Part shown: positions 4,052 through 13,416 of the stretch, piece after piece
Position numbering within the stretch: position 1 is the first letter of the stretch
How the letters are laid out: every line of letters starts with the position of its first letter
NCBI GenBank assembly: GCA_024280835.1
Contig: JAJRPJ010000008.1
Location: 271,730 to 335,729 of the forward strand
Source of the DNA: Candidatus Zixiibacteriota bacterium
GTDB taxonomy: Bacteria > Zixibacteria > MSB-5A5 > GN15 > JACZUZ01
Reading direction: 5' to 3'
DNA: 64,000 bases
Translations under genes and position numbers: made by a program
Notes under the pieces: model-generated
Seen by the model: the letters and a program-made list of their open reading frames with translations, nothing else
Databases searched by the model: none
What the model was told of the DNA's origin: nothing

Positions 4052-5335
4052 ATGAAGAAGATTTCACAAATTTTGCTGATTGCAGCCTTTGGCGTCTCGC
4101 TCATTGGCTGCTCAACTGTTAATTCCGCCCACGGCTCGGTCAAAGGCAATGTCACCAAGCGAATGCAATTTGTAGTGGACAATTTGGTTGACTCCTATAA
4201 TTCGCTCGACTCGACTGGTTACAGACGACATTTTGGTCCAGAACTGTTGGTTAGCACATCTCCGGGTTCTATCGGGGAAGTCTTCCGCGATTCGCATCGG
4301 GACTATGGCAAGATTGAGAAGTTCGACATTGACGCGTCCGACGATGGGCGGTCAGCGACCTTGACATTGTATATGGAGAGACTGACATTTGATGTTCGAT
4401 TACGCTTGGCTAGAAACGGCAAACTGACACAGTTTGACTGGCAAGCCAATAGAACATCTAGCGATAACTCATCGCAATCTAGTGTTCAAATAGATTATCA
4501 GAAATTCACAGAGAGGTTTGTTGCGGCGATTCGAGATAGCAACCTTGTTGATTTTTACGAGATTGTTTCGTTCGACGATGGCTCTGGTGAAGAACTCACT
4601 ATTGATGATGCAGCTGGTATGCTGGGACGTATTAGAGCCAGCGGTGAAATTACTAATGTCCTAGATTATGAAGTACTTGAAAGTGGGGAATTGTCTTTGC
4701 CGATAACTTTCAGCGATAGTGATGTCAACACGCTGGAATTCATTTTTGCTTTCTCTGAGACTGGAGAACTGTCTCAGATTAAACTAACAAATTATGCTCC
4801 AAAGGAATCAATCGGCAAAACGCTTGCCGATATTGGAGCTGACACAACTCTTACAGCTGATTTGCACTCTCTTTCTAAATTGCGCGATTTGTACAATGCT
4901 GATGAAGGCAAGGTCAGGTTCATAGCGCTACTGTCACCTACGTGACCAGGATGTCGACGGGGGTTCTCCGTCATCGCCGATGTCATGAAAGACATCCCAA
5001 GTGAAGATTTACGTATGTATGTTGTCTGGTTGCCGATACTTAGATCCGATGACAGATTCTCGGCGTATTTGCGTTCGCCGGAATATAAGGACGATAGAGT
5101 TAGTTACTTTTGGGACGACGACCAACTGACTGGAATCGAGTGGGCTGATGTTATCGATTACAATCAAGTCGCTTGGGATATTTATTTCCTTTATGGCAAG
5201 GATACGCCATGGGATGAGTCGCCTTCAAAACCAGATTATTGGATGCATCAACTTGGACAGTTGCAGGACAAAGCCCTATTTCTAAACGGTGATACCCTTG
5301 TTGAAGAGATAGAGAAACTACTTGCGAAGAATTGA
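4052..5335 (+). CDS. putative selenoprotein: lipoprotein with NTF2-like/DUF3887-like region and C-terminal thioredoxin-like domain, Sec encoded by in-frame TGA at 4943-4945
   Basis: ORFs 4052-4945 and 4985-5335 share a frame. Read-through gives ...KVRFIALLSPT-U-PGCRRGFSVIADVMKDIPSEDLRMYVVWLP..., placing the TGA at the first position of a UxxC redox motif. Lipobox SLIGC at the N-terminus. Confidence 0.82.
4943..4975 (+). promoter_or_regulatory. putative bacterial SECIS element
   Basis: Immediately 3' of the TGA: stem GACGG (4956-4960) / CCGTC (4968-4972), outer GAT (4950-4952) / ATC (4973-4975) with a 3-nt bulge. Apical loop GGGTTCT begins with G 16 nt after the TGA. Confidence 0.7.
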
Positions 5336-11905: not shown

Positions 11906-12331
11906 ATGGCGAACTATAGAAACATCCAAGGTAAGTCCAATTGGACAGTTGAACACTGCCTACTGACGTTAAAAGCTTTGGCTGATGAGAATCGACTACG
12001 GGCGTTGATTGCCTTGCGCTCCAGAGAACTATGCCAATGTCAGGTTGTCGAATTACTCGAATTGGCTCCCTCGACAGTTTCGAAACATCTCTCTTTGCTT
12101 AAGGCTGTGGGCTTGATTGAATCTCGCAAAGTCGGTCGCTGGATATATTTTCAGGCGGTTGTCACTGAGGACAATGAATTTCAAACCGAACTTGCAGAGC
12201 TTGTCGCTGCGCAAACGAAATCCAGTGAGTTGATTCGAGCTGACCGCAAACGGATTAAAGAAATCCTATGTATCGACCCAGAGTGTCTTTGTGAGACACA
12301 GCGGGCTAAGAGTGTAACGACGAAAAAATAG
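11906..12331 (+). CDS. arsR: ArsR/SmtB family metalloregulator
   Basis: wHTH with ELCQCQVVELLELAPSTVSKHLSLLKAVGLIESRKVGRWIYF; C-terminal Cys cluster CIDPECLC. Confidence 0.88.
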   Translation: MANYRNIQGKSNWTVEHCLLTLKALADENRLRALIALRSRELCQCQVVELLELAPSTVSKHLSLLKAVGLIESRKVGRWIYFQAVVTEDNEFQTELAELVAAQTKSSELIRADRKRIKEILCIDPECLCETQRAKSVTTKK

Positions 12332-12345
12332 AGTGACTAATAATT

Positions 12346-13416
12346 GTGAGTGGAACTACTAAGAAACATCTATCATTTCTAGATAGCTATTTGACTCTGT
12401 GGATTTTGTTGGCGATGGGTGGCGGCGTTCTGACTGGCCACTTGGCGCCTGAAATCTCTACGTTTTGGAATTCGTTAAGTTCGGGCAGTACGAATATTCC
12501 TATTGCTATTGGTTTGATAGTGATGATGTATCCACCTCTGGCGAAAGTGCGCTATGAGAGAATCGGAGAGGTGTTTCGTGACTATCGAATTCTGATTCTG
12601 AGCTTGGTGCAAAACTGGGTTATTGGACCGGCTCTAATGTTTGCTTTGGCAGTGATATTTTTGGGTGACTATCCAGAGTATATGATCGGTTTGATTTTGA
12701 TTGGTTTGGCGCGATGCATTGCTATGGTAATTGTTTGGAATGATCTGGCAGGGGGTGATCCTGAATACGCTGCGGGTCTGGTGGCTTTTAATTCTGTCTT
12801 TCAGGTTTTGTTTTTCTCGCTTTTTGCTTGGATTTTTATCACAAAATTACCGCCACTCTTTGGACTCTCTGGGGCCGAAGTTGATATTTCAATCGGTCAG
12901 ATTTCTGAGAGCGTCTTTATCTATTTGGGGGTTCCGTTTATCGCTGGTATTTTGACACGTTTGATATTGGTTCGCAAGAAGGGCGTGCAGTGGTATCAAG
13001 ACAAGTTTATTCCTAGAATCAGCCCTCTGACTTTGGTGGCCTTGCTCTTCACTATTTTTGTGATGTTCTCTTTGAAAGGTGAGCATATAGTTAGGATTCC
13101 AATGGATGTCGCGCGGATTGCTCTGCCCTTGTCTATATATTTTGTAGTTATGTTTCTGGGAAGTTTCTGGCTGAGCAAACGATTTGGAGCAGACTACAAA
13201 AAATCTGTCACTCTCAGCTTTACTGCGGCGTCAAACAATTTCGAATTGGCAATTGCTGTGGCGATTGCAGTTTTTGGAATTAATTCGGCTGTGGCTTTCA
13301 CAGCTGTTATCGGACCGTTAGTCGAAGTCCCTGTTCTGCTGGCTTTGGTTAATGTCGCGCTATTCTTCAAGAGACGATATTTCAAAGAAGACAATATCAA
13401 AGAAATTGTCACCTAG
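12346..13416 (+). CDS. acr3: ACR3-family arsenite efflux transporter
   Basis: Multi-TM protein with the [19 protein letters not shown] motif; adjacent to arsR. Confidence 0.9.

Follow-up and report, generated by a model that had tools for sequence, protein, structure and literature searches.

A probable lipoprotein selenoprotein with a UxxC thioredoxin-like domain, found in three bacterial phyla and associated with mer-type genes in many relatives

The window, a stretch of 64,000 nucleotides from Candidatus Zixiibacteriota, contains a reading frame of 428 codons (427 residues and a stop) on the forward strand, which is preceded by one gene of the ABC_transp_aux/DUF7088 type and one of the DUF4340 type and has a TPR protein opposite it. 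The frame opens with ATG and ends at a TGA (5333-5335), and its sole internal stop is another TGA, at codon 298. The list of open reading frames splits it into two pieces, 4052-4945 (297 aa) and 4985-5335 (116 aa), the second of which has its first ATG 3' of the redox motif. Sequence and translation thus confirm what an earlier note on this DNA had claimed, i.e., that both pieces share one frame interrupted by this TGA only, that the downstream part has no start of its own covering the redox motif, and that gene callers would split or truncate the gene. The context of codon 298 is RFIALLSPT-U-PGC-RRGFSVI, in which the TGA opens a UxxC motif (U298-P-G-C301), precisely where the note had put a selenocysteine (Sec). 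The only Cys codons in frame are number 20, within the lipobox LIGC, and number 301, the partner in UxxC. The stop-free tail after the TGA extends over 129 codons, with a chance of ca. 0.001 at this base composition. Among the 25 TGA candidates of the window (both strands, flanks of at least 40 and at least 60 open codons), this one is outstanding (309/129 open codons), and none of the others is comparable. The features are collected in Table 1.

Table 1. Features of the putative selenoprotein gene (window positions) and of the Sec machinery in the same genome (contig positions).
Feature	Position	Strand	Evidence or remark
Putative selenoprotein gene	4052..5335	+	read through TGA at codon 298
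Lipobox LIGC	4100..4111	+	lipidated Cys20 (predicted), codon at 4109-4111; sequence, Cys inventory
NTF2/DUF3887-like repeat 1 (residues 31-133)	4142..4450	+	AlphaFold2, Foldseek, DUF3887 in homologues
NTF2/DUF3887-like repeat 2 (residues 144-247)	4481..4792	+	AlphaFold2, Foldseek, DUF3887 in homologues
Thioredoxin-like domain (residues 258-425)	4823..5326	+	domain model, Foldseek
Putative Sec-UGA codon (residue 298)	4943..4945	+	TGA kept in 26 members, TGC/TGT in 3
Cys301, putative resolving Cys of UxxC	4952..4954	+	conserved columns, Cys inventory
Putative bSECIS hairpin, core GACGGGG-GUU-CUCCGUC	4956..4972	+	recoding energy, covariation, PMC13188914 constraints
selA	C12:483807-485150		499.5 bits, over curated cut-off
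selB	C12:485216-487153		directly after selA; 287 bits, over curated cut-off
tRNA-Sec (selC)	C12:471566-471658		65.7 bits; ARAGORN anticodon TCA (UCA)
selD	C8:144518-145438		387.3 bits, over curated cut-off

By inspection of the translation, the protein starts with a signal peptide and lipobox (MKKISQILLIAAFGVSLIGC-S), in agreement with the lipoprotein suggested before. The AlphaFold2 model of the whole protein (14 sequences, mean pLDDT 80) has a disordered signal/linker (residues 1-30) followed by two alpha+beta repeats and a thioredoxin fold. Foldseek neighbours of this model were tandem NTF2-like proteins (MonBI, Lsd19), a cystatin-like protein and thioredoxins. Pfam DUF3887 (PF13026) matched 8 of 14 members, with a best E of 1.3e-7, but not the window protein itself, which gave no match to Pfam or NCBIfam when searched alone; the NTF2/cystatin-like folds found by Foldseek lend support to the NTF2/DUF3887-like N-terminal half proposed in the note. 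The redox domain modeled alone (25 sequences) reached a pLDDT of 95.4 and a pTM of 0.91, with a strand at 25-31, UxxC at 35-38 and a helix at 36-51, so that Sec would start the active-site helix. Its Foldseek neighbours were ResA, CcmG, DsbE, SdbA and glutathione peroxidases, while the Pfam and NCBIfam models (Redoxin, AhpC-TSA, Thioredoxin) had no significant match to this domain in 25 members and a PDB sequence search gave nothing significant. Many members from Eremiobacterota are a thioredoxin domain alone behind a lipobox, and the NTF2-like front is therefore typical of the window's phylum. In a genome of the same genus (G075), a truncated copy (L031/L077) sits at the corresponding position behind the DUF4340 gene and consists only of the lipoprotein signal and the first NTF2-like repeat, then TAA or TAG, the Sec domain being absent.

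The joined protein had matches in 13 of the 133 genomes of the window's phylum, where ten loci besides the window have TGA at exactly codon 298. A contig search added TGA members from Armatimonadetes and Eremiobacterota, and with profile searches of both phyla the total rose to 26, distributed over the window's own phylum, Eremiobacterota/Vulcanimicrobiota and Armatimonadota. Across the homologues from these three phyla, codon 298 is TGA in 26 (window included), Cys in three, Ser in one and Thr in one. The earlier expectation of Cys or Sec at this position holds with the last two as exceptions. Over the redox domain, TGA members share 27-56% identity with the window, and the sequence is conserved on both sides of the codon. 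Conserved signatures of the family are YWD, AWD[VI]Y and P-x-[FY]WMHQ. The three Cys homologues (L045, L046 and L047, Eremiobacterota) have TGC or TGT and align one to one. The Ser homologue (L032, genome G128) reads SPTSASS, with Ser replacing both Sec and Cys, and the Thr homologue (L083) retains the partner Cys. Because the Cys clade branches from within Sec lineages in the tree and two changes suffice for the four non-Sec rows included, Sec looks to be the ancestral state of the family, with later losses to Cys, Ser and Thr. No relative was found in the plasmid collection searched. One selenoprotein gene (L065 5278-6557, G034) is split over two frames near the middle, by a frameshift or an assembly error.

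All four genes that the note had singled out for checking, selA, selB, selC and selD, are present over curated cut-offs in the genome of the window (G000, 3.31 Mb, 96% complete). The selD gene (L011) is a putative selenoprotein gene too, with an in-frame TGA in the active-site motif ACAGUASK. In the window's phylum, 128 of 133 genomes have a selA match (117 over the cut-off). Among the five without one is G128 (100% complete), the genome with the Ser homologue, which also has no selB over the cut-off; judging from the sequence, Sec is lost there where the machinery is lost. As for the genomes with the Cys form, G244 and G249 have no selB over the cut-off, and in G186 Cys is used although selB is retained. 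In G134, the TGA form occurs with neither a selA match nor a selB over the cut-off; this MAG is probably incomplete, since selB is present in G240, which carries a close homologue. In another genome, a selA gene contains a single in-frame TGA (G060:C64:9741-11075).

A candidate bSECIS hairpin follows the TGA. Its core has an energy of -10.0 kcal/mol, and only a fraction of 0.005 of 1000 synonymous recodings was equally stable; synonymous recodings were chosen as the control because the stretch is coding, which makes them the better one. The mean z against such recodings was -2.0 over 19 Sec members versus 0.0 over four non-Sec members. Pairing is found in 81% of cells among the 16 members aligned, versus 58% in shuffles, and there are 20 two-sided compensatory cells versus 8.9 +/- 2.1 (0/500 shuffles), a number that falls to 4-12 when the partner is slid. 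The hairpin of L039 (CUUCAC-GGAGCAA-GUGAAG) has different letters in the same pairing register. Published constraints for bSECIS elements are a loop of 3-9 nt, a stem of 4-16 bp, G in the first two loop positions, a distance of 16-37 nt from the UGA and an MFE <= -7.5 (PMC13188914). The window hairpin agrees with them (GUU loop, stem of at least 7 bp, spacing 17, -13.6 kcal/mol), as do 25 of the 26 Sec members versus 12.5 expected, and so do all five non-Sec members. These constraints alone are too permissive to discriminate, and hence the recoding energy test and covariation were used instead. A search of the hairpin against Rfam gave no match.

The window gene has no mer neighbors within the window, and a search of its genome for the DF family gave no match. 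At 13 of ca. 24 informative loci, from two phyla, the redox domain has MerT-like or DF-family genes within ca. 4 kb, mostly together with a MerR/ArsR regulator. In G036, a MerR-family regulator comes first, then a MerT/MerTP-like transporter, a DF-family protein (NF049942, 103 bits, over the cut-off) and the selenoprotein, with abutting frames, and G033, G034 and G035 have this gene set plus one further ORF. In Eremiobacterota, a MerT-like and/or DF-family neighbor is found in G134, G240, G150, G135, G162, G186, G244, G249 and G250; the Cys form of G249 is the in-frame continuation of a MerT-like segment. Several MerT matches fall below curated cut-offs. The ca. 11 other loci have no MerT-like/DF neighbor, among them the window copy, its sister G075, G010, G008, G126, G128, G151 and G267. 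G073, from the window's own family, has a mer-type neighborhood too; its contig holds the first repeat only, and it is outside the 13. Chance co-location with DF is very unlikely, since 20 of the 133 genomes of the window's phylum have this family, although loci within each phylum are related and not independent. In four Armatimonadota members (L080, L081, L082 and L087), the redox domain is prolonged by a C-terminal extension containing an LLTxxGC motif, whose resemblance to the start of the DF family suggests a fusion of the redox domain and its DF partner. The window also has an ArsR-family regulator with an ACR3-like arsenite efflux transporter, recognized by eye, behind it (11906-13416), 6.5 kb downstream of the selenoprotein gene.

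Taken as a whole, the locus is best explained as a gene for a membrane-anchored lipoprotein selenoprotein (probability ca. 0.95), the UGA being almost certainly decoded as Sec by SelB and tRNA-Sec, aided by the hairpin. The protein would be exported and lipidated on Cys20, and the two NTF2/DUF3887-like domains may serve to hold the C-terminal thioredoxin fold or to position it. The attacking selenolate would be Sec298, at the N terminus of the first active-site helix, and the resolving thiol Cys301. The reaction would take place outside the cytoplasm, as thiol/disulfide (or peroxide or Hg-thiolate) exchange, and we consider an extracytoplasmic UxxC oxidoreductase likely.

A less likely possibility is that the Sec/Cys pair chiefly binds or transfers soft metals such as Hg(II), in the manner of MerP, instead of exchanging disulfides. 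MerP and MerT act through pairs of cysteines, and the affinity of selenolates for Hg(II) exceeds that of thiolates. The 13 mer-linked loci, the abutting frames in G036 and the in-frame MerT-like segment in G249 point in this direction. However, the window copy and seven others lack mer-type neighbors, several MerT matches are below cut-off, the full thioredoxin fold of the ResA/TlpA kind is unlike the small ferredoxin-like fold of MerP, and a neighborhood is not a mechanism. A selenoperoxidase, similar to glutathione peroxidase or peroxiredoxin and reducing peroxides with Sec298, seems unlikely. Sec is favorable to peroxidase chemistry and glutathione peroxidases appear among the Foldseek neighbors of the redox domain, but ResA and CcmG rank better there, the UxxC spacing is that of TlpA/ResA/Trx-like proteins, and a first look at the conserved columns shows no evident catalytic tetrad of glutathione peroxidases.

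That the UGA is a genuine stop, leaving a 297-residue NTF2-like lipoprotein and a separate or decayed ORF of 116 residues (a pseudogene), is highly improbable. Standard gene calling does yield exactly two ORFs, and the sister species G075 keeps the first repeat and ends there. Nevertheless, in 26 members the codon is TGA and never TAA or TAG, it is Cys in three, the downstream peptide is conserved over three phyla, including the residues right behind the codon, Eremiobacterota have the domain on its own as a Sec or Cys lipoprotein, and the genome has the full Sec machinery; we rejected this explanation on these grounds. Reassignment of TGA (e.g., to Trp) or a sequencing error, for which we found no supporting evidence, can practically be dismissed, since the gene itself ends in TGA, seven TGG codons encode Trp and homologues show Cys and not Trp, while TGA is common to 26 loci from many genomes, which makes a sequencing error (TGC or TGT in the reads, the refutation that the note had foreseen) impossible.

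Returning to the lipoprotein selenoprotein, the mer linkage in relatives makes the handling of Hg(II) or soft metals a serious candidate for the family, and we see about even odds of a role in mercury/soft-metal defense for the family and a doubtful one for the window copy. A tentative picture would be a new selenoprotein family in Hg/soft-metal defense, in which an extracytoplasmic thioredoxin-fold selenol might replace MerP beside the MerT-like transporter and the DF protein, receiving or releasing Hg(II), with window-type copies perhaps recruited to other redox tasks of the envelope. Selenoproteins implicated in Hg and As resistance are listed in a published catalogue (PMC13188914).

As a kind, UxxC thioredoxin-like selenoproteins are well known. 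Those catalogued (Trx, TlpA/redoxin-like, DsbG-like; PMC13188914, PMC9312934) share with the window family the thioredoxin fold, Sec for the first Cys of CxxC, a bSECIS directly 3' of the UGA and Cys homologues. In contrast, the window family has no NCBIfam/Pfam model for its redox domain, a tandem NTF2/DUF3887-like lipoprotein front, its own YWD, AWD[VI]Y and P-x-[FY]WMHQ signatures, and a mer-gene neighborhood in relatives. One catalogue entry, “Redoxin family protein” (PF08534, MBA3499694.1 / HEU0032618.1; PMC9312934, PMC13188914), shares the UxxC motif, and one member here has a sub-threshold Redoxin match (E 0.023); judged by name and motif, this entry might be the same domain. The Rcas_1661 family thioredoxin-like (seleno)lipoprotein (NF041057) is also thioredoxin-like, a lipoprotein and Sec/Cys, but it is not a match, with one of 25 members reaching E 0.051. 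The TlpA/ResA/CcmG oxidoreductases are alike in fold (Foldseek probability 1.00, TM ca. 0.5-0.67), membrane anchoring and extracytoplasmic redox site, whereas identity is 10-19% and the window protein has Sec for Cys, a different C-terminal half and the NTF2-like front. The libraries and open-access literature searched, the latter also for the motif SPTU and for selenoproteins with mer genes, contained neither the window family nor its domain order or mer neighborhood.

Standard gene calling would split or truncate the Sec form wherever present, and split gene calls probably explain the missing redox-domain model in family libraries. The 26 Sec, three Cys and two degenerate forms are enough for a model rescuing the family. 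The recurring MerT-like/DF/MerR/ArsR neighborhood makes a bacterial link between selenium and mercury directly testable, and gives a hint of function for the DF family, published so far as a hypothetical protein only (PMC12013277). The paper that named it reports no TGA-containing homologue in other organisms (PMC12013277). In the window's phylum, DF-family (NF049942) matches with one in-frame TGA were seen at G125:C21:40190-40465 and G085:C86:38956-39048.
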